Source: Armatimonadota bacterium (GTDB lineage: Bacteria; Armatimonadota; Fimbriimonadia; Fimbriimonadales; Fimbriimonadaceae). From it: a stretch of DNA of 64,000 bases. Location of the stretch: the NCBI GenBank assembly GCA_027451905.1, contig DAIDHV010000010.1, positions 1 through 64,000 on the forward strand. The letters run 5' to 3'. The notes under the pieces are model-generated. The model was not told the origin of the DNA, did not search any database, and saw only the letters and a list, made by a program, of their open reading frames with translations. The position numbers were made by a program, and so were the translations under genes. Positions 51,923 through 62,853 of the stretch are shown in pieces (position 1 is the stretch's first letter; each line of letters begins with the position of its first letter).

Positions 51923-53140
51923 TTACAGAAACTCTTGCAGTCCAATAAAGCTGGCCTCTAAAAACTCGGCAATGTGAAGAACCTGAATCCGATCTTTGTG
52001 CCTCTGGCGGACACCCTGTGCAATCCAGGCATGGCATCCAGGGTTGCCAAGAACGATGATTTCCGCGTGGGAATCTTCAATATGATCTACCTTGCGGTCC
52101 AACAAATCTTTTGATAATTTAGGTTGAGTGAAATTATAGACACCCGCGCTTCCGCAGCATGTGTCCGATTCAGGCAACTCAAGATATTGGATGTCGGGGA
52201 CGGCGCGAATGAGGGCCCTTGGATCTTCTTTGCTTTTTTGGCCGTGAGCCAAGTGGCACGCGTCATGATAGGTTGTTGGCTTAAAATCCACCCCCTTTGA
52301 ACTGGCAAGCACGGCTTCTAAGCCTTGCTTTCTGAGGAAGGTGCTGATGTCAACGCATCGAGCGGCAAACTCTTTTCCGCGGGGACCCAAAAGGTCTTGG
52401 TAGTGGGTCATGGTGCTGCCGCATCCTGCCGAATTCACAATGACGGGGCTAGAGCCAGGCATCGACGCAATCAAGGCATCGGCTTTGGCACGGGCCTCAC
52501 TCAGATAGCCATTGTGGGCATCCATGGAGCCGCAGCAGCCCTGTTGAACAGTCTTGACCGTATAGCCGACCCTCCGCAGAAGCCTTTTGCTTGCTTCGTG
52601 AACGCGGGGGTAAAGCACCCTCATCGCGCAGCCTTCCAGAAAATAGACTTCACCCAAAACCGCGGGCAAATCTCGATCCTTAAGAGGGGGCAGTTTATTA
52701 GATTGGATATGAGGCAATTCTGCCTGAGAAGGGCTGCCGTCTTCAGAAACATCCAAAAACTTGGGCAATTTGCCCTTTGGTAGAACTTTTCCAAGGCTTA
52801 TGGCAGCCTTGAAAGGACCCGGCGATGTGGTGAGGTGGATTAAGTTTTTTAGCTTATGGTTTGGCTTTTTAGCGTTGATTTGCTCTCGAGCCAGCTCAAG
52901 GATTTGGCCATAATGGACTCCGCTGGGGCACGAAGTTTCGCAGGCAAGGCAGCCAAGGCACCGATCAAAATGGGGCTGAACATCTTGCCAATCAATTTTG
53001 CCAGCTTCTGCGCTCCTTGCTAGGTAAATTCTGCCCCGAGGGGATTCAAGTTCGCTTCCAGTGACTTGAAAAGTCGGGCAATCTTCTAGGCAAAACCCGC
53101 ACCGAATGCAGTGGACAGCAAGTTCTTCTAGCTGCTTCAT
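51923..53140 (-). CDS. glcF: glycolate oxidase iron-sulfur subunit
   Basis: 405 residues. Two 4Fe-4S ferredoxin motifs (CIRCGFCLEDCPTF and CLGCLACETSCPSG) lie in the first 70 residues, then two CCG (cysteine-rich) domains: EGCAMRVLYPRVHEASKRLL ... GCCGSMDAHNG and YHDACHLAHGQ ... SDTCCGSAGVYN. It passes electrons from the flavin subunits to the membrane quinone pool. The start overlaps the glcE end by 4 nt. It is the last gene of glcDEF. Confidence 0.95.
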   Translation of the reverse strand: MKQLEELAVHCIRCGFCLEDCPTFQVTGSELESPRGRIYLARSAEAGKIDWQDVQPHFDRCLGCLACETSCPSGVHYGQILELAREQINAKKPNHKLKNLIHLTTSPGPFKAAISLGKVLPKGKLPKFLDVSEDGSPSQAELPHIQSNKLPPLKDRDLPAVLGEVYFLEGCAMRVLYPRVHEASKRLLRRVGYTVKTVQQGCCGSMDAHNGYLSEARAKADALIASMPGSSPVIVNSAGCGSTMTHYQDLLGPRGKEFAARCVDISTFLRKQGLEAVLASSKGVDFKPTTYHDACHLAHGQKSKEDPRALIRAVPDIQYLELPESDTCCGSAGVYNFTQPKLSKDLLDRKVDHIEDSHAEIIVLGNPGCHAWIAQGVRQRHKDRIQVLHIAEFLEASFIGLQEFL

Positions 53141-53982
53141 AGCGGAAACCTCAATGGAAATTGATTGCGTCCAAATTGTAATTCAGGGTCTATCATTTTC
53201 TTGATTTTCTTCCAGAAGATTTCTTGATCTTTTTCGAGCGGTTCTAGGTTCTTAGGGCCGAAGCCCTTACCAATTATCCAATCTCCCGGAAACCGCTTGA
53301 GTGCGTCTAAATTCGTGTTTGGCAGGCAAAGGGTCGCTGAAGCGGCATCAAAGGGTGCGTTCTTGTAAAAGGGTAGGGCCTCTGCCTGAGAGCGGAGCAC
53401 CCGCTGATAGATCAAGGATTCTGGGGCTTCATCCAACCCCTTGCAGTGGGCGGCAGGCAGGGCTCTAATTGGGTAAGTGCGCAAAATAACGGTTGCGATA
53501 ACGCCAAGGCTCCCTCTTGTTCCTGCTATAAATCGTTGAAAATCAAAGCCAGCCACATTCTTAACAGCAGAGGTGCCGGCCTTGGCAAGGCTTCCTCCTG
53601 GCAAGACAATTTGGATGCCTAGAATCCAATCTTGCCATGAACCGCACTGAGATTGGAGCCGATGGGGAAGATTTAATGAAATGGCACCCCCAATCGAGGC
53701 ATCAACTGGTTCAAATGGTAACCAAGGCAGGCACTGGCCTCGTTTGCCAAGCTCAATTTGGAGGGCTTCCACCGAAAGCCCCGCTTCAACTTCGCAAATT
53801 TGGTCAGCGGGCTCAATACGGAGAATGCGATTTAGGGCCTTAGTTGAAAGCCTTTCCCCATCTGGGTCTTCGCAGCGATAACCCTGGTGAAGGTCCAACC
53901 CAGTTATAAACAGGCGTGACCTTGCGGATGCAATTTCAACAATTTGGGCGACGGTTGTTGGCTCATGAACCTCGGTTACCAT
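53137..53982 (-). CDS. glcE: glycolate oxidase FAD-binding subunit
   Basis: 281 residues, shorter than the roughly 350 typical of GlcE. PCMH-type FAD domain with EVEAGLSVEALQIELGKRGQ, DASIGGAISLNLPH and VKNVAGFDFQRFIAGTRGSL. The C-terminus ends soon after the FAD part, so the substrate cap is reduced. It overlaps glcD by 7 nt and glcF by 4 nt. Confidence 0.9.
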   Translation of the reverse strand: MVTEVHEPTTVAQIVEIASARSRLFITGLDLHQGYRCEDPDGERLSTKALNRILRIEPADQICEVEAGLSVEALQIELGKRGQCLPWLPFEPVDASIGGAISLNLPHRLQSQCGSWQDWILGIQIVLPGGSLAKAGTSAVKNVAGFDFQRFIAGTRGSLGVIATVILRTYPIRALPAAHCKGLDEAPESLIYQRVLRSQAEALPFYKNAPFDAASATLCLPNTNLDALKRFPGDWIIGKGFGPKNLEPLEKDQEIFWKKIKKMIDPELQFGRNQFPLRFPL

Positions 53983-55442
53983 GCGTTACCCCTCCACCTT
54001 GCTTTGTGTTCGATACATCCCTTTTGATTAGGAATCACCTTGCAAGGATTACACAAATTGCCGGGATTCAAGGCAAAACGAATGGAGGATTGGAGCTTGA
54101 GCCCTTCTTCGCCAAACAGCTCTTCCATGAGGTCAATTTTCTCGACCCCAACGCCATGCTCTCCGGTTATGCTGCCTCCTAATTCGATGCACTTTCTAAG
54201 GATCAATTCTCCTGCTTCCACAACGTGGTCCACCACCCCTGGCTCTCGATCATCAAAATAAAAGCACGGATGAAGGTTGCCATCTCCGGCATGAAAGATA
54301 TTGGCAACCCCGATTTTGTATTGGTCTGCAACTTGATAAACAAGGTCTAGCATTTCTGGCAATTTAGACCGAGGAATCACCCCATCGTGGGTCACAGAAG
54401 AGGGGGCAATTCTTCCCATAGCGCCAATCCCTTGCTTCCTAGCTCGCCATAGCTCCTTTCTGCCCGCTTCATCGGCCGCTTCTCGGTAGTCGTATCCTCC
54501 AAGGTCCTCGGCAATGCGCTTGACTTCTTCCATTTGCTCTCTTGCCGCTTGTTCAGAATCGCCATCACATTCCACAAGGAGGAGGGCTGCGCAATCGTCG
54601 GGAAACTGAAGGTTAAACGCTAATTTTAAGGCTCTTAAAATATACTTATCCATCAACTCAAGGGCAGCGGGGATGATTCCTGCCTCGATGATGGAAGAGA
54701 CAGTTCTGGTGGATTGGCCCACTTCCCGAAAAGCGAGCAGAGATGTGATGACGTGAGACGGCATCGGGACCAGATTGACAGTGGCTTCTGTGACAATGCC
54801 AAGGGTGCCTTCGCTTCCCACCAAAAGGCTCAGAAAATCGGGTCCGGGCAGAGAGTGGTTGGACCCTCCAAATGTTCTCATCGTCCCCTCATAGTCCACC
54901 AAGGTTAAACCGAGAACATGGTTCACGGTGACCCCATATTTAAGGGTGTGGGGGCCTCCTGCATTTTCGGCTATATTGCCGCCAAGGGTCGATACCTGGC
55001 CGCTAGATGGATCGGGCGCAAAATGAAGCCGATGGACAGCGACTGCCTCGGAGAGCGACTTGTTCGTTGCGCCAGTTTGGGCGGTCAAGAATCGGTCGTG
55101 CACATCAATGTGGAGGATTTTGGTCATCTTTTTGGTAGATATCACCACCCCTCCAAGCGCGGGCAAGGCGCCTCCGCTCAATCCAGTTCCAGCTCCTCGG
55201 GCGGTAAACGGGATGCTTCGTTTGGTGCACCAGGTCACAACTTTTGCCACCTCCTGGGTGGTGATGGGCAGAACAACCGCGGTCGGAGCCGATTTATCCA
55301 CCGTGTAGGCATCGCAATCATAGCCTCTTCGGGCAGAGGGCCCGGTGAGGACGCGATCCGCGCTTAGGAGGTTGCCTAAATCTGCCGCAATGGCGTCGTT
55401 GCCCACAAGTGATAGGATAGCGAAAGTTTTGCATTTCGACAA
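53976..55442 (-). CDS. glcD: glycolate oxidase FAD-linked subunit (D-lactate/glycolate dehydrogenase type)
   Basis: 488 residues. FAD domain: PTAVVLPITTQEVAKVVTWC, TARGAGTGLSGGALPALGG, FAPDPSSGQVSTLGGNIAEN, SEGTLGIVTEATVNL. Substrate domain and C-terminal His motif: FHAGDGNLHPCFYF and GSITGEHGVGVEKIDLM. With GlcE and GlcF it oxidises glycolate, or possibly D-lactate, to the 2-oxo acid. It is first in the operon. Confidence 0.95.
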   Translation of the reverse strand: MSKCKTFAILSLVGNDAIAADLGNLLSADRVLTGPSARRGYDCDAYTVDKSAPTAVVLPITTQEVAKVVTWCTKRSIPFTARGAGTGLSGGALPALGGVVISTKKMTKILHIDVHDRFLTAQTGATNKSLSEAVAVHRLHFAPDPSSGQVSTLGGNIAENAGGPHTLKYGVTVNHVLGLTLVDYEGTMRTFGGSNHSLPGPDFLSLLVGSEGTLGIVTEATVNLVPMPSHVITSLLAFREVGQSTRTVSSIIEAGIIPAALELMDKYILRALKLAFNLQFPDDCAALLLVECDGDSEQAAREQMEEVKRIAEDLGGYDYREAADEAGRKELWRARKQGIGAMGRIAPSSVTHDGVIPRSKLPEMLDLVYQVADQYKIGVANIFHAGDGNLHPCFYFDDREPGVVDHVVEAGELILRKCIELGGSITGEHGVGVEKIDLMEELFGEEGLKLQSSIRFALNPGNLCNPCKVIPNQKGCIEHKARWRGNAW

Positions 55443-55608: not shown

Positions 55609-56070
55609 CTACTTAGCCTGCTGGGAGTTTTGTATCATTCGGCGAGACTTCTTAACCAATTCCCTTGCGTGTCCATCAACCCAGGTTATCCCCCTCCAGA
55701 TTGGGCTGATCTTTTCGAAGTTGGCAACGGCTGCTTTTGCAAATTCTAGGCTAATGTCCCACTTACGCTTCGCTGCAACTTGGTAGGCAAATTCGAGGGC
55801 ACTTAGTCCGGGAGCCGCATTCAGTGCTTTGATGGCAAGGTCACTTAACCCGTCCCACTCGCTGTAAAACTTTAGGAGGAATTCCCCGCACCCTATTAGC
55901 AAGTAGGAGTCTTGTTGATAAGCCTCAGACTCGGTTGCCTTAATTACAACTGGAATCCATAACCTGTCTATCTTCTTTAAGGTGGACAGTTCATTGCCTA
56001 CGAAGTCAGTTGCCGCGGCATCGCCCTCGCCCGCCTCTGCTAAATACCCTGCCAGTTCTTCAGCCGTCAT
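55609..56070 (-). CDS. small helical protein, candidate immunity to RHS tip 3
   Basis: 153 residues, all soluble and predicted helical, acidic N-terminus (MTAEELAGYLAEAGEGD), with LIGCGEFLLKFYSEWDG and ALEFAYQVAAKRKWDISL. The gene starts 11 nt after the stop of the orphan RHS C-terminal module, the standard position for a cognate immunity gene. No family is recognised. Confidence 0.55.
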   Translation of the reverse strand: MTAEELAGYLAEAGEGDAAATDFVGNELSTLKKIDRLWIPVVIKATESEAYQQDSYLLIGCGEFLLKFYSEWDGLSDLAIKALNAAPGLSALEFAYQVAAKRKWDISLEFAKAAVANFEKISPIWRGITWVDGHARELVKKSRRMIQNSQQAK

Positions 56071-56081
56071 GCTCGATACCC

Positions 56082-57017
56082 TTACTCTTGGCTCACTGGA
56101 TCATGGAAGGTTTGGTATGTTGCCTCCCATGCGATTCCTGCTTCATAAACAATCCAAAACTCAACTTGGGAATTTTTCACTTGCTTTGCAGAGTCCTTCA
56201 GCAACCTATACCAGGGTTTTCCGCGGGAAGCTAACTGTGAAATCCTCATTCCCGATGTATAAGGGCTGTTGTCATCTGTGCGAAAAACCCTCAGCCCCAG
56301 CTTGGCCGCGATTGGTTTTGGGACCGGTCCAAGTGTAGCGAGACCAACTGGAGCTGCAACTCCGTTGTCCTCTGCAAAGTGTTTTCCCCAAACAAGTAGC
56401 GTGCGCCTTGCCTGGCTTAAGGCGGCGCTGTACACCTCGTTCGAAGCGTTTCCATCACCTGTATACAGCCACTTGTACAGCGACCACAGGCCATAAGGGT
56501 CTAGCCATCTAAATGGGTTGTTGGCGCAGTAGTCGTACCAGTTGTTTCCATCTTGAGCGGGGTCTTGGGTAAGAAAGCGGCCGGTGGAAGGATCATAGTA
56601 CCGATATCCAAGGAGCATGAGACCAGTGTCGGAATCGGTTTGATACCCATAACCTCCTGCAAACCCAAGTTGACCAGTGAAAGTACCACTGGAAGAGATG
56701 GGATTGCCAAAGCCATCGGTCTGGGCCGTTGCATCGATATTGCCAGCTGAATCCACTTGAGACACATTAGAAGCTAATCGGTCTTGGATATTAAACACCG
56801 ACCTGCTTGCTCCATTCACCATGACTCCAGCCGTGTACTCATTATGCCCATCATTGATCAAAATAGATGTTGGCATAGCTCCTAAGCGGTTGTAGCTAAA
56901 GGTTCCAGATAAACCAGATTTTGAAACCCTTGCCCCAAGCCCATTATAACGAAAACTATCGGAAAGCCCATTGGGACCCGTGATTGAAGTCAAATCGCTT
57001 TCATAATCATAAGCCAA
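56082..57017 (-). CDS. orphan RHS C-terminal module (tip 3)
   Basis: 311 codons. Residues 1-175 are the terminal RHS core: SDLTSITGPNGLSDSFRYNG, FSYNRLGAMPTS, YGYQTDSDTGLMLLGYRYYD, PSTGRFLTQDPAQDGNN. They are nearly identical to the end of the large RHS protein. After DPYGLW comes a unique tip of about 135 residues with ALSQARRTLLVWGKHFAEDN, TDDNSPYTSGMRISQLASRG and NSQVEFWIVYEAGIAWEATY, a candidate toxin of unknown fold. There is no signal peptide; it is probably silent until recombined onto the full-length gene. Confidence 0.8.
   Translation of the reverse strand: MAYDYESDLTSITGPNGLSDSFRYNGLGARVSKSGLSGTFSYNRLGAMPTSILINDGHNEYTAGVMVNGASRSVFNIQDRLASNVSQVDSAGNIDATAQTDGFGNPISSSGTFTGQLGFAGGYGYQTDSDTGLMLLGYRYYDPSTGRFLTQDPAQDGNNWYDYCANNPFRWLDPYGLWSLYKWLYTGDGNASNEVYSAALSQARRTLLVWGKHFAEDNGVAAPVGLATLGPVPKPIAAKLGLRVFRTDDNSPYTSGMRISQLASRGKPWYRLLKDSAKQVKNSQVEFWIVYEAGIAWEATYQTFHDPVSQE
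56503..57008 (-). repeat. about 500-bp copy of the RHS core end (orphan module 3)
   Basis: Nearly identical to 59450-59955 inside the main RHS gene, with scattered substitutions. It spans the repeats up to the DPxG junction, after which the sequences diverge completely. Confidence 0.85.
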
Positions 57018-57026
57018 ATAGCTCGG

Positions 57027-57419
57027 CTATTTCCTACCTTTAGCATCTTTTTGACGGCGGTTCTTTATGGATAACTTCAGCTCCGATCTTCTCAACCAAG
57101 CTACGTAAACTCCCACTGTACCGATCGTTATCCAGGCCACGTTCAAGTGTCCCTGAATTGTTGAAGTAGATAAAGGTAAGGTGAGAGAAAATACTGCGTA
57201 CAAGCAAAGTAGGGCTAGCCCCATAGCCTTGGTTCTGAACTGGAACTTGTCTTTTGGACGGAACTTCCTCTCGACCGCTAACCAGCCCTGAAGCGTGGGG
57301 AGGCAGTTACTGGCAACCCAACCTGCTATGAACGGACCAATAGAAGATAACAAGTATAGCTGGACGCCATAGAGCGTAGCTCCAAGCAGAAAGTCCGGCA
57401 AAGTCAATAGCGATTTCAT
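57027..57419 (-). CDS. small membrane protein, candidate immunity to RHS tip 2
   Basis: 130 residues. Four hydrophobic segments (for example LLGATLYGVQLYLLSSIGPF and ALLCLYAVFSLTLPLS) and a basic C-terminus. It lies between orphan tip 2 and orphan tip 3. A membrane immunity protein would fit a pore-forming or membrane-acting tip. No family is recognised. Confidence 0.55.
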   Translation of the reverse strand: MKSLLTLPDFLLGATLYGVQLYLLSSIGPFIAGWVASNCLPTLQGWLAVERKFRPKDKFQFRTKAMGLALLCLYAVFSLTLPLSTSTIQGHLNVAWITIGTVGVYVAWLRRSELKLSIKNRRQKDAKGRK

Positions 57420-57501
57420 TGGCTCCCTAAACCGGTGTGTTTTTGCCTAAATCCACATGACTTCCCATTTGCCTGTACCATAAATTGAATCCATTATATG
57501 C

Positions 57502-58137
57502 TTATTCAAACGGGGGCCAGTCTCCTGGTTTGAAGAGGCTCGGTTGTTCGTCGACTGCTCCAGGAGGCTCTACATAGTGTTGCCTGCCCGTCCCACCCCC
57601 TAGCTGCCCGGATTCGGTTCCGCCGTCACGACCAGACGGGTTCCCATTATCGCCGCTTTTACTGTTTTTAATTCTTTTTCCAAGTGCTGCTCCCGATCCG
57701 CCAAAGGCACCTTTCAAACCATCTTTAACCCATTGCGGCCGCTTATGATCCAAGATTTCCGAAACACCATCTCCAACCCCCTCGAAGAGAGCGCCGCCCA
57801 GTATGGCGGCTAGACCCGCTTCTGGTGCCAATGCGAATGCAAGCCCAGTACCGAAGCTTATCAAGAAGTCGCCGATCGCCCTGTAGGTTGATGGAGAACC
57901 TACGGGGGCAGGTGGCTGATAAGAGTTGTAAATGCCAGGATCTGTTCTAGCGGATGCTGGGGCGTGACCAGTAGGATCAGCCCAGCGGAGTGGGTTGTTG
58001 GCGCAGTAGTCGTACCAGTTGTTTGCATCTTGAGCGGGGTCTTGGGTGATGAAGCGACCTGTGGAAGGATCATAGTACCGATATCCAAGGAGCGTGGTAC
58101 GGGAATATGTTCTTTTGCAGGGAAGCAAGTACCTCAT
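57502..58137 (-). CDS. orphan RHS C-terminal module (tip 2)
   Basis: 211 codons. Only about 30 residues of the terminal RHS core remain (LLGYRYYDPSTGRFITQDPA ... ANNPLRWADPTG). A tip of about 155 residues follows, with a glycine/alanine-rich hydrophobic stretch (ISFGTGLAFALAPEAGLAAI, then LGGALFEGVGDGVSEI) and a polar end with GTGRQHYVEPPG. The first residues before LLGYRYYD do not belong to the RHS core. The hydrophobic tip is consistent with a membrane-acting toxin, but this is inference. Confidence 0.72.
   Translation of the reverse strand: MRYLLPCKRTYSRTTLLGYRYYDPSTGRFITQDPAQDANNWYDYCANNPLRWADPTGHAPASARTDPGIYNSYQPPAPVGSPSTYRAIGDFLISFGTGLAFALAPEAGLAAILGGALFEGVGDGVSEILDHKRPQWVKDGLKGAFGGSGAALGKRIKNSKSGDNGNPSGRDGGTESGQLGGGTGRQHYVEPPGAVDEQPSLFKPGDWPPFE
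57966..58096 (-). repeat. about 130-bp copy of the RHS core end (orphan module 2)
   Basis: It matches 59444-59565 of the main RHS gene and the corresponding part of module 3, covering GYRYYDPSTGRF through DPxG. The shared block would allow recombination of tips onto the full-length gene. Confidence 0.8.
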
Positions 58138-58140
58138 TCC

Positions 58141-58842
58141 TCAAGTCTGTCCATGAAAGACAGCCATTAGCTTGCGGTCGCTTTTCAAGTTTCCGCGTTT
58201 AAGTGTGGTTGCTAGGCCGCCTAACACCCTCGCTAGGACAACTCTGTCATTTAGAGAGTCAACTGTCGCAATTGAGCACTTACCGCTCGGAAGGCACAGG
58301 GCCGCCACCACGGTTTGGTTGGGGTTGGCAGAGCTCCCCAACTCCACCTTGACCTGCTGCAGCTTTACCGTCAACCTCTGTCCTCGCTTAGGAACGTGAC
58401 CGTACAGCGCTTCAATGTCCTCACTATTTTCGGTGCCTGGATTGAGATGAATCGATTTTTTGCCTAGGAACAGGGTAATTGTGCTGTTGAAAGACCAGCT
58501 CCCAGAAACCATCACTTGGTATCCGTTAAACGGCGCCTTCATAAAAACCTCACCATTCAACCAAAGGCACGAAGTCGCCCGAAAATTCTTGGTGCCTACA
58601 AATTTGCAACACAACTGAGGCGGCACTCCATCTATGGTGACCGAGCCGCGAGCAGACGCGTTGAAGCGCCCCAGTGGTACCTTGAGAGCATCAATAAGTG
58701 ATAATTCGAGTAGTAAGGAACGGCTGTTCAAAAGTCCAATATCCATCTTTCTTGAGAGGGTTCTGACCTTCAGATAAAATACACCAGAAACCGCTAGGAA
58801 TAGACCAAGAATCCCAAATAGAACGAGCCATGCTCTCTTCAT
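58141..58842 (-). CDS. hypothetical membrane-anchored protein, candidate immunity to RHS tip 1
   Basis: 233 residues from the ATG at 58842; a GTG at 58887 is possible. One N-terminal membrane helix (WLVLFGILGLFLAVSGVFYL) is followed by a periplasmic or extracellular beta-rich domain with paired Cys (GVPPQLCCKFVG, SCLWLNGEV, LCLPSGKCSIATV). It is placed between the main RHS gene and orphan tip 2, the position of an immunity gene. No family is recognised. Confidence 0.5.
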   Translation of the reverse strand: MKRAWLVLFGILGLFLAVSGVFYLKVRTLSRKMDIGLLNSRSLLLELSLIDALKVPLGRFNASARGSVTIDGVPPQLCCKFVGTKNFRATSCLWLNGEVFMKAPFNGYQVMVSGSWSFNSTITLFLGKKSIHLNPGTENSEDIEALYGHVPKRGQRLTVKLQQVKVELGSSANPNQTVVAALCLPSGKCSIATVDSLNDRVVLARVLGGLATTLKRGNLKSDRKLMAVFHGQT

Positions 58843-58968
58843 TTTTGGGGTGGTTTGACCCACCAAGATGCGCTTCCCCTCAGCCACGGTCTTCTTGTCC
58901 CACGCTTACTGGGCTCTTCAGTGCGGTGCAACGCTTGTACTTAATCATAATATAATGCCCAGTTATAG

Positions 58969-61017
58969 TCAAGGAATACTGTAGCCTCCTATTCCAACTG
59001 GGCCGTTCAAATTACTATTGCTGCCCGCTCCACTGTCGGAGCCTTGCATAGTTTCATGAGCAACTTCTGCTACCTTGTGCAATTTCTCTAGCTTTTCTTT
59101 TAACTCGTACGAGTCCTCAAGCATATCAGTATCTGCAGCAGCTGGGACTGGAATAATTGTGTCGTCCACGCCTTGCGTCGGGTTGCCGTACACGGTTTCA
59201 ACTCCCGTTTTGTAAGCGTCAGCTGCCATACGTATCCAAGCAAGGGTGTTTTGACGCTGCTCGGTTCCGTCGTACTCGTTACGAGCTATCTTCATTCTTG
59301 CTAATTTTGCCTCCATCTCTTCAATTTGCGTCTTGAGATTCAGCTTCAGTATGTACAAGTATCCCCAAACGGCGACCTCTGCAAGCCCATATACAGCAAG
59401 GGCAACCCCAAGGACTGCCCAGATGAACTTTCCACTGGGATCAGCCCAAGCCAGTGGGTCATTGGCGCAGTAGTCATACCAGTTGTTTCCATCTTGAGCG
59501 GGGTCTTGGGTCAGAAATCGACCGGTGGAAGGATCATAGTACCGATTGCCAAGGAGCATGAGACCAGTGTCGGAGTCGGTTTGATACCCATAACCTCCTG
59601 CAAACCCAAGTTGACCAGAAAAAGGGCCACTTGATGAGATTGGATTCCCAAAGCCATCGGTCTGGGCCGTTGCACCGACATTGCCTGCTGAATCCACTTG
59701 AGACACATTAGAAGCTAATCGGTCTTGGATATTAAACACCGACCCGCTTGCTCCATTCACCATGACTCCAGCCGTGTACTCATTATGCCCATCATTGATC
59801 AAAGTTGATGTTGGCATGGCTCCTAAGCGGTTGTAGCTAAAGGTTCCAGATAAACCAGATTTTGAAACCCTTGCCCCAAGTCCATTATAACTAAAGGTGT
59901 CGGAAAGCCCATTGGGCCCGGTGATTGAAGTCAAATGGTTTTCGTAATCGTAAGATAAATTGGTGGTTCCGGCAGAGGAAGTGATTGAAGTTGTTCTTCC
60001 TGCCCCATCGTAGGTGTAGCTTTTGATAGTGTTCGCCCCTTCCGTGATCGAGTTCAACTTGTCGGCTGACCCATAGTTGTAGGTTTGCGCAGCCCCGTTG
60101 AGGGTCTCTGATGTTCGATTGTGGTTGCCGTCATAGGTGAAAGCCTCTGAGTAGCCATTGCCATTTTCCGAAATCAGCTGATTGTCAGCGTCATAGGCGT
60201 AAGTGGTTTCCACGTTGTTCACGAATTTATCGATGAGGTCTCCGACGGCGTCATACGAGTACGACTCAGATTCAAGCAACTGGTTGCTGGGGGAGATAGT
60301 TGAGGTCGCACAAACTCGCTGGAGGGGATCATACTGAAACTGCTCAGTAACGCCGTTTCCCGCCCCGATCGGTAACGAATTATTGGAGTATTGTTCCGTA
60401 ATAAGATCATCATCCGCATCGTAGTTCATGAGTGCGAGGAAATTACTTGGACTCAATACAGTCTTAACGTTCGAGTCCCGATCGTACGAGTAGCTGGCTT
60501 TTCCCGATGCATCCGTGTAGGAAGTGAGCCGCATGGCTCCGTCGTAGGTAAAAGACTCGCTGCCAGCTGGGCTGGTATACCCAGTGACCTCGTCATCCAC
60601 ATTATATGTCCAAGTGCTTGTGCCGGTTGAATCTACCATCGAGGTCAACCTCTCCCTCGAATCGTAGGCAAAAGACACGCCGGTACCATTTGGGTAAGTT
60701 TTTGAGATGAGCTGCCCATCGCCGTCATAGGCTAAGCTGATCAGTTGGTTTAGCGGGTTAGTGAAGCTTTTAACATTTCCATTTCCGTCGTAGGTCCACT
60801 TTTCGACACTTCCGTCGGCAAGAGTCATGTTGGAAACCTGTCCCATTGGAGTGTAGGAATAATTCCGCGTTTCGCCATTGCCGTCGGTAACAGAAACCTC
60901 ATTGCCGGCGCGGTCGTAGCTACGAGTAACGGTGTGCCCAAGTGGATCTTTTGTGGTCAACAGATTGCCGTCTTGGTCGTACCCGTAAATTGTAATGTTG
61001 CTAGCCGGATCTAGCAC
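58969..61017 (-). CDS. RHS-repeat protein, C-terminal part with tip 1
   Basis: 682 codons counted from GTG at 61017, but the frame is continuous upstream to the TAG at 61072-61074 and is really the second part of the larger RHS gene. It holds about 20 RHS/YD repeats (for example GRTTSITSSAGTTNLSYDYE), the conserved terminal core GLMLLGNRYYDPSTGRFLTQ with DPSGKFIW, and a tip of about 140 residues. The tip has one membrane helix (GVALAVYGLAEVAVWGYLYI), a coiled coil (QIEEMEAKLARMKIARNEYD, then KEKLEKLHKVAEVAHETM) and a Gly/Ser end. Confidence 0.85.
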   Translation of the reverse strand: MLDPASNITIYGYDQDGNLLTTKDPLGHTVTRSYDRAGNEVSVTDGNGETRNYSYTPMGQVSNMTLADGSVEKWTYDGNGNVKSFTNPLNQLISLAYDGDGQLISKTYPNGTGVSFAYDSRERLTSMVDSTGTSTWTYNVDDEVTGYTSPAGSESFTYDGAMRLTSYTDASGKASYSYDRDSNVKTVLSPSNFLALMNYDADDDLITEQYSNNSLPIGAGNGVTEQFQYDPLQRVCATSTISPSNQLLESESYSYDAVGDLIDKFVNNVETTYAYDADNQLISENGNGYSEAFTYDGNHNRTSETLNGAAQTYNYGSADKLNSITEGANTIKSYTYDGAGRTTSITSSAGTTNLSYDYENHLTSITGPNGLSDTFSYNGLGARVSKSGLSGTFSYNRLGAMPTSTLINDGHNEYTAGVMVNGASGSVFNIQDRLASNVSQVDSAGNVGATAQTDGFGNPISSSGPFSGQLGFAGGYGYQTDSDTGLMLLGNRYYDPSTGRFLTQDPAQDGNNWYDYCANDPLAWADPSGKFIWAVLGVALAVYGLAEVAVWGYLYILKLNLKTQIEEMEAKLARMKIARNEYDGTEQRQNTLAWIRMAADAYKTGVETVYGNPTQGVDDTIIPVPAAADTDMLEDSYELKEKLEKLHKVAEVAHETMQGSDSGAGSNSNLNGPVGIGGYSIP
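59444..59955 (-). repeat. RHS core end in the full-length gene (parent of the two copies)
   Basis: The segment of the large RHS gene that is duplicated at 56503-57008 and, in part, at 57966-58096. Confidence 0.8.
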
Positions 61018-61071
61018 CGACAGCAGGTTACCGTCTCCGTCGTAGGAATAGTTGAGGCTCGTTCCATCCGC

Positions 61072-61074
61072 CTA
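61072..61074 (-). other. in-frame amber codon splitting the RHS gene
   Basis: TTA-TAG-GCG interrupts one RHS repeat, and the reading frame is intact on both sides. Ordinary genes nearby end in TAG (for example at 13525, 26081 and 32564), so TAG is a real stop here. Confidence 0.9.
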
Positions 61075-62853
61075 TAATACCTGAATAGGTCGTTCCCAGC
61101 TATCGTATGCAATCGCAGTGCGATTATTAAGCGGATCAGTGACCTGCAACGGCATTCCAAATGAATCAAAAGAAAGGGACGTTGTATTGCCATTTGGGGA
61201 AGTCTCTGAGATTGGATTGCCGTATTGATCGTATGAATAAGTGGTTGTGTCGCCGGCGCCATCAGCTGTTGTAGCTAGGTCGCCGTAAGCGTCGTATGTG
61301 TTTGTAATAAACGTATTGTTTAGTGCGTCGTTTACCGAGAGCAAGTTTCCAGTTGAGTCATAAGACATGGCAAAAACCGATCGATCTGGAAGCATTTCAG
61401 AGGTTGCTTCCGCAAAGTTGTTATAGGTAGCCGACCAGCTATTTCCCTTGGGGTCAACGAGAGTTACGGGGTTTCCGTTGGAATCAAAGGTAAATGACCA
61501 TGTGTAACCATCTTTGTCCTTTATGTTTGTGGCTTGGTAATTAACGTTACGTTGAGTGATGCTTATCGAATAGCCACTAAAGTCCACCCTGCTTGCCAGC
61601 TGCCCACTGCTGTAGTTATCGGTCATCGAATAACCCAGCGGATTCTTGATTGATGTTGACGGGGCGGCATACGTGAAGTAGGTGGCATTTCCCAGCGGGT
61701 CGACTACGGAATAGGTAGATTTATCGGTTGCATTGAGGTAGGCAACCGACAAGTTTCCGTTTCGGTCAGTGTGAGAAAATGCCGAAAGCGCCCCCGCAGT
61801 TGAGGCGGCCGAAGAGCTTACGGAACTGCCGTAGCCAAATTTGTCCACGTTACCATCACCGGAAATGGGGGGCCGAGTTACCGAAATGAGATTGCCGTAT
61901 GAGTCGTAGCCAAAACTGTATACATTGCCGGCTTGATCGGTAACGGTGCCAAAGTCCCCATTAGAGGCCCTCGTAAAATTAATCTGCCTCCCATCGCTGG
62001 TTCGAAGGCCAGTCACAAGAACGCCTCCTTGCTGCCTTTGCACGGCTACAAAATTGCCACTCCTATCGGAAACTTTCTGCAGATACCCGCCAGAATCGAA
62101 TGAGAACTGTTCGCCGCTTGGAGTTAAAAGGAACCAAGTGCCATCTGGGTTGTTGGTGAGGGTATCAAAAATTCCTGACGCGGTGAATTTGGTGGTTCCG
62201 GCGATATCATAGCCAGGTGTGAAAGGGATGACGAGGCCGTTTGCGCACTCCAATTCGGCAGGGTAGCTGGGTCCAGAGTTGTAAATGTGCATATCGTAGC
62301 TCCAAGACCAGCCGGTACCGAGGTCGCCAGTGTACTTAGATTCAGTATTGTGAAAGATTGACATGCTGAAGTTCATACCGCCCCGCACCCTAAAGCTAAA
62401 CAAGTTGAGGGTTGTTAGGAGATTGCCGTTGGCTGTATTAACAAGTCCCATGGCGGTTTGGTAGCCACCCTCCCAGGGGAGATTTGGGCCCGCCGCTGGC
62501 GAAGCGCTAAGCGAGTCCCCTCCGCCAATTGGTGGGGCCATCGCGACAAGTGAAGCATCCTGAAAATATTCAAGAGAGTTTTTCGTCCATAATCCGCCCC
62601 TCAAGTGACCCTTGCCAGGGTATTTACCAAGGAACGGCTTCTCTTTTCTATTGGCAACCCCGGACCGAGCTTTGCCCTCTGTTGAGAGAGACTTCACTAA
62701 ATGCCTTCCCGACTTCACTCCTGCCGCGATTGCCTGAGAACTGGCAGAAAGGACCATGACACCGGCAATCCCAAAGGCGACGACCCTAAAAACAAGCGAC
62801 TTGGAACGATGGTTGCTAAATAGTAGACTTCTGTCTACAAAATGGGGGGGCAA
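61072..62853 (-). CDS. RHS-repeat protein, N-terminal secreted part, ended by an in-frame TAG
   Basis: 593 residues. A signal peptide (VVAFGIAGVMVLSASSQAIA) precedes a DUF6531-like entry region (GMNFSMSIFHNTESKYTGDL, GTGWSWSYDMHIY) and the first RHS repeats. It stops at TAG (61072-61074) in the middle of a repeat: YDSWERPIQVL-stop-ADGTSLNYSYDGDGN continues in the same frame. Without the stop the protein would be about 1,294 residues. RHS proteins form large shells that encapsulate a C-terminal toxin. A nonsense mutation, a read-through site or a sequence error could explain the stop. Confidence 0.85.
   Translation of the reverse strand: MPPHFVDRSLLFSNHRSKSLVFRVVAFGIAGVMVLSASSQAIAAGVKSGRHLVKSLSTEGKARSGVANRKEKPFLGKYPGKGHLRGGLWTKNSLEYFQDASLVAMAPPIGGGDSLSASPAAGPNLPWEGGYQTAMGLVNTANGNLLTTLNLFSFRVRGGMNFSMSIFHNTESKYTGDLGTGWSWSYDMHIYNSGPSYPAELECANGLVIPFTPGYDIAGTTKFTASGIFDTLTNNPDGTWFLLTPSGEQFSFDSGGYLQKVSDRSGNFVAVQRQQGGVLVTGLRTSDGRQINFTRASNGDFGTVTDQAGNVYSFGYDSYGNLISVTRPPISGDGNVDKFGYGSSVSSSAASTAGALSAFSHTDRNGNLSVAYLNATDKSTYSVVDPLGNATYFTYAAPSTSIKNPLGYSMTDNYSSGQLASRVDFSGYSISITQRNVNYQATNIKDKDGYTWSFTFDSNGNPVTLVDPKGNSWSATYNNFAEATSEMLPDRSVFAMSYDSTGNLLSVNDALNNTFITNTYDAYGDLATTADGAGDTTTYSYDQYGNPISETSPNGNTTSLSFDSFGMPLQVTDPLNNRTAIAYDSWERPIQVL

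Follow-up and report, generated by a model that had tools for sequence, protein, structure and literature searches.

An RHS locus with two orphan tip modules and candidate immunity genes in an Armatimonadota genome

Described orphan modules and how the locus compares

Rhs proteins form a shell that encloses a C-terminal tip, cleaves at a DPxG site and releases the tip into a neighbouring cell; a partner protein protects kin. Tips that have been displaced from their carrier gene are known from several bacteria. For the orphan rhs-CT/rhsI modules of Dickeya dadantii and Yersinia both toxicity and immunity have been demonstrated (Poole et al. 2011, PMC3150448), and in the rhs and cdi loci described there orphan pairs proved functional and orphan immunity genes were expressed (PMC3150448). 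Orphan Rhs tips of Salmonella also act as internal toxin–antitoxin modules (PMC7043789).

We analysed a locus in a stretch of 64,000 nucleotides (the window) from an Armatimonadota genome. It resembles the Dickeya and Yersinia rhs-CT/rhsI loci in that an RHS gene is followed by repeats of a truncated core, each joined at a DPxG boundary to an unrelated tip and followed by a small gene. In Dickeya and Yersinia the RHS genes are full length and the tips have relatives in other bacteria (PMC3150448), whereas the main gene of the window is interrupted, its tips have no family, and its toxins and immunity proteins are putative. As for the main and orphan Rhs of Salmonella Typhimurium (PMC7043789), a single RHS gene adjoins an orphan tip with its candidate immunity gene. 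The Salmonella system is associated with a type VI secretion system (T6SS) and has mapped internal promoters; in contrast, a search for the T6SS sheath protein VipB/TssC (PF05943) gave no match in the window's genome, with an E. coli control matching, and the N-terminus encoded by the window's RHS gene is signal-like. These two observations favour Sec export over T6SS delivery. The orphan cdiA-CT/cdiI arrays of E. coli EC93 and EC869 likewise hold displaced pairs of tip and immunity gene, usually with poor translation starts for the tips (PMC3150448), but their carrier protein is a different one, CdiA, and their boundary motif is VENN.

Further counterparts lie in the same genome (G000; its contigs are C1, C5 and so on), in an array at 172-189 kb of C1, and in other arrays of the order (loci L027, L029 and L048-L066). 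They share with the window the core domain, the alternation of tips and small genes and a similar tip size, but contain more modules, and some of their tips have recognisable toxin domains. The layout is already well known and is routine in the order, but no described family was matched by the tips and partners of the window.

Architecture of the locus

The locus reads, on the minus strand, RHS gene with tip 1, partner 1, module 2, partner 2, module 3, partner 3 (Table 1). One flank is formed by genes at 51923-55442 that we take, by eye from their sequence, to be glcD/glcE/glcF-like, and the other by what is presumably, again by eye, a SulP/STAS-like transporter gene from 63343 onward. The ORF map of the window bears out the first-pass annotation in its claim that three small ORFs alternate with three tips; each tip ends 11-82 nt before its small ORF.

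Table 1. Features of the RHS locus, in positions of the window
Feature	Position	Strand	Basis
RHS gene with tip 1, whole interrupted frame	62853..58969	-	
RHS gene 5' part, 593 aa: signal-like hydrophobic N-terminus, DUF6531, YD/RHS repeats	61072..62853	-	ORF, Pfam
RHS gene 3' part, 682 aa from GTG: RHS repeats, Rhs_assc_core, tip 1	58969..61017	-	ORF, Pfam, NCBIfam
In-frame TAG splitting the RHS gene	61074-61072	-	
Tip 1, starting at DPSG, 157 aa with a single TM-like segment	58972..59442	-	
Partner 1, 248 aa, candidate immunity gene	58141..58887	-	
Repeated core piece in orphan module 2: 42 codons (~129 nt)	57968..58096	-	
Orphan module 2, 211 aa	57502..58137	-	
Tip 2, 158 aa from DPTG	57505-57978	-	
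Partner 2, candidate immunity gene; 130-aa hydrophobic membrane protein	57027..57419	-	
Repeated core piece in orphan module 3: 180 codons (~500-540 nt)	56503..57017	-	
Orphan module 3, 311 aa	56082..57017	-	
Tip 3, 139 aa from DPYG	56085-56501	-	
Partner 3, 153 aa, candidate immunity gene	55609..56070	-	

The core repeats, which had been put at about 500 bp and 130 bp, are real. Compared with the main core, the 180 codons of module 3 are 89.6% identical in nucleotide sequence and the 42 codons of module 2 (about 126-129 nt) 85.7%. The differences are mainly synonymous, with a dN/dS of 0.19 for module 3 and 0.16 for module 2. Homology to the core starts within about 10-50 nt of the stop codon of the preceding small gene. 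Up to the DPxG codons the in-register identity is ~73-100%; directly after them it drops to 20-33%, the random level, so that in all three modules a DPxG(L)-type motif (DPSGK, DPTGH and DPYGL) coincides with an abrupt loss of homology. Rhs_assc_core (NCBIfam) scored above its cut-off in all three modules, and Pfam detected RHS_repeat. As in a polymorphic toxin, RHS/YD repeats and Rhs_assc_core precede a variable C-terminus; as in an orphan array, the unit of truncated core, unrelated tip and small gene recurs after the RHS gene, here in two modules.

The description of the RHS gene as full length proved wrong. A TAG codon cuts its frame in two (Table 1), and the locus thus has no intact carrier gene. 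Both halves have RHS repeats (Pfam), and the 5' part has a hydrophobic segment at residues 20-38. TAG terminates 6 of the 29 long ORFs in the window, as well as partners 2 and 3, which makes it an ordinary stop here; recoding was rejected on this ground. Since the genome is a 37-contig assembly, the TAG is possibly an assembly error. Elsewhere in the genome, at G000:C1:443458-447066, a related RHS gene with a core of the same family is open over 1202 aa.

The orphan modules had also been called promoter-poor. Three promoter-like sites were found, compared with 7.5 expected in shuffled sequences, which is compatible with that description but is weak evidence for it. Module 3 begins with TTG and has no clear ribosome site, and in module 2 a Shine-Dalgarno-like motif lies too close to the ATG. 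Plausible ribosome sites precede partners 2 and 3, that of partner 2 being AGGGAG upstream of an ATG.

Tips, partners and RHS arrays of the order

By blastp the three tips (157, 158 and 139 aa) are mutually unrelated, as the first-pass annotation had stated. Searches of Pfam, NCBIfam and PHROGs with the three tips and three partners gave no significant family match outside the RHS core, and family profile searches detected no toxin signature in the three window tips. The remark that they belong to no recognised family is thus true of tips and partners, but it does not set the locus apart, since unassigned tips are the norm in the order.

Relatives were sought among 113 genomes of the Armatimonadota order, in which the window's genus is represented by a single genome. 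Tip 1, partner 1 and partner 2 have no convincing relatives in this set; the tip 1/partner 1 query returned one borderline match at 26%, and tip 2 gave marginal matches only. A single full-length relative of tip 3 occurs in another genus (G039, contig JAEURO010000059; 34-38% identity), and the matches of tip 3 in G034 and G078 have mainly the N-terminal motif YKWLYTGDGNAS..VY in common. No match to tip 3 was found among plasmids by tblastn. The alignment search for tip 3 returned no viral contig, and its single genome contig was that of G039. An AlphaFold model of tip 3 from a three-sequence alignment had a pLDDT of 40 and was unusable.

Partner 1 has one N-terminal TM segment and a domain that is probably exported. 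The soluble partner 3 was all-helical in a single-sequence model (pLDDT 77 for the best of five, 37-62 for the others); a fold search returned nothing at E <= 0.001, the nearest solved folds being TPR-like or generic helical repeats, and a PDB sequence search gave no match. Whether the same tip is followed by the same partner in other genomes could be checked for tip 3 only. A small gene does follow its relatives (a 143-aa ORF in G039 and a 104-aa ORF in G034), but the similarity of these ORFs to partner 3 is at chance level, not above that of shuffled sequence.

Other tips of the genome and the order support tip-partner pairing in general, not for the window's own pairs, which we infer to be cognate pairs of toxin and immunity protein. 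In another tip family, picked after the data had been seen and with members 28-55% identical across 8 genomes, the gene after the tip was small in 8/8 (~110-160 aa as called) and its product had exactly one hydrophobic segment, near the N-terminus, in 8/8, compared with exactly one segment in 16/50 sampled partners overall. A profile test did not recover these partners as one sequence family, with held-out members ranking 2-12 of 48. In the window's genome the C1 array holds two clearly homologous partners (z 17), and one C1 and one C5 partner are similar (z 7.6). Kinship of partner 1 with the two homologous C1 partners was rejected (z 3.0 and 1.5; hhalign probability 0.5%). In G053, tip-partner pairs have been duplicated together. 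These pairs (G053:C1:2598351-2625274) are 100% identical, lie ~11-12 kb apart beside a frameshifted copy and represent a recent module duplication in one chromosome.

Rhs_assc_core was present in 100 of the 113 genomes, with up to 30 matches per genome and 29 in that of the window. Several RHS matches lie near the ends of G000 contigs C1, C3, C8, C11 and C15; RHS repeats are probably where the assembly breaks, and the genome may have more than the 29 core matches counted. The C1 array (172000-188700) comprises ~eight modules of the same core family as the window, and its tip at C1:185410-186339 resembles an NlpC/P60-CHAP peptidoglycan hydrolase. Transposase-like fragments and internal stops also occur in this array. 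Two further RHS modules are found at C5:31.8-34 kb.

A motif search of 27 sampled stretches of the order yielded 66 modules. Sixty were shorter than 700 aa: 59 orphans, and the window's interrupted main gene. In the sampled arrays, too, orphan modules alternate with small genes; the median tip is 137 aa long and the median distance from tip stop to partner start is -4 nt. About six of the 64 distinct tips match toxin-like families (Tox-REase-9 (2), Ntox44, CHAP/NLPC_P60, SitA6-type/DUF2380 and SLATT). Among the others many are simply hydrophobic or without family; ~90% of tips have no known family, and such tips are the rule in the order. By eye, we take the tips of contig G039:C272 (L027), which consists almost wholly of RHS orphan modules, to be GIY-YIG-like, PD-(D/E)XK-like and Hint plus HNH-like, and those of the array at G034:C1:2740000-2757000 (L029) to include two phospholipase A2-like tips and one metallopeptidase-like tip. 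Taken alone, the window locus is one more locus of a known kind. The order, with its near-universal dense orphan arrays, is a rich source of candidate toxins and immunity proteins. It also lends itself to the questions of why displaced modules persist and how fast immunity genes diverge from toxins.

Interpretation of the orphan modules

We consider it probable that the window contains an Armatimonadota RHS polymorphic-toxin locus with a C-terminal displacement array, whose three partners most likely encode immunity proteins. The architecture, the Rhs_assc_core match in each of the three modules, sister arrays with recognisable toxin tips and the published orphan modules all lend good support to the proposal that the layout is that expected for tip replacement. 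The product of the once intact RHS gene would have been an exported shell of YD repeats with Rhs_assc_core and a variable toxin tip. Recombination inside the core would have replaced the tips and left the old ones downstream as orphan modules, each made up of a core piece, a tip and a partner gene. The core pieces could act as homology arms through which another tip is loaded onto an RHS gene, and partners that are kept may protect against relatives still using the displaced tips. For the window we infer toxicity and immunity, the shell and its cleavage, recombination as the origin of the modules, and exchange. Against this account stand the lack of a toxin signature in the tips, the chance-level likeness of partner 3 to the genes after the tip 3 relatives, the want of convincing relatives of tip 1 and of partners 1 and 2, and the interrupted main gene.

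Because the local RHS gene is broken by a stop, the locus probably no longer launches toxins; it is more likely to be decaying, or to serve as a store of tip and immunity genes. That it is decaying, with the downstream modules as remnants without present function, we judge unlikely, though well worth weighing. The TAG in the main frame, internal stops in other RHS pieces of the genome (C1:178383-178817 and C5:31787-32248) and the want of convincing homologues of tips 1 and 2 would all fit decay. However, the five downstream frames are all intact, partners 2 and 3 retain plausible ribosome sites, the core pieces differ chiefly by synonymous changes, and the TAG may itself be an assembly error. 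Open frames and a dN/dS below 0.2 in the core part would suit orphan modules that are translated as they stand, as intracellular toxin–antitoxin-like pairs, and are hence kept despite the broken delivery gene. Main and orphan Rhs tips of Salmonella provide a precedent (PMC7043789), and across the order the first 20 codons of 18/60 orphan frames include a start codon with a Shine-Dalgarno-like motif ahead of it, compared with 11% of internal control windows. We nevertheless hold this to be quite improbable: the starts of modules 2 and 3 are poor, no internal promoter was detected beyond chance, and the low dN/dS is no proof of orphan translation, as the divergence may predate displacement and stem from the stage of an intact gene.

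There is only a slight chance that, instead of being toxins, the tips provide surface or structural variation in a wall-associated YD-repeat protein, with the small genes accessory or unrelated. Three window tips without a toxin signature, and the many hydrophobic or unassigned tips of the order, would fit such variation, but nuclease-, NlpC/P60-CHAP- and SitA6-like tips stand behind the same core domain in similar arrays, and topology-matched partners follow one tip family in all eight genomes. Returning to the toxin-immunity reading, we advance a further set of claims tentatively and with more doubt than confidence: that the tips and partners are new families, in a lineage with RHS orphan arrays in almost all genomes and here without a T6SS, and that partners diverge much faster than their toxins, which stay 28-55% identical while of the partners only length and membrane topology can still be recognised.

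The intact 1202-aa RHS gene on C1 has the same signal-like N-terminus as the window's gene and adjoins IS3-like transposase fragments (G000:C1:440659-447066). The tail of its tip is strongly hydrophobic, a feature shared by a tip on C5.
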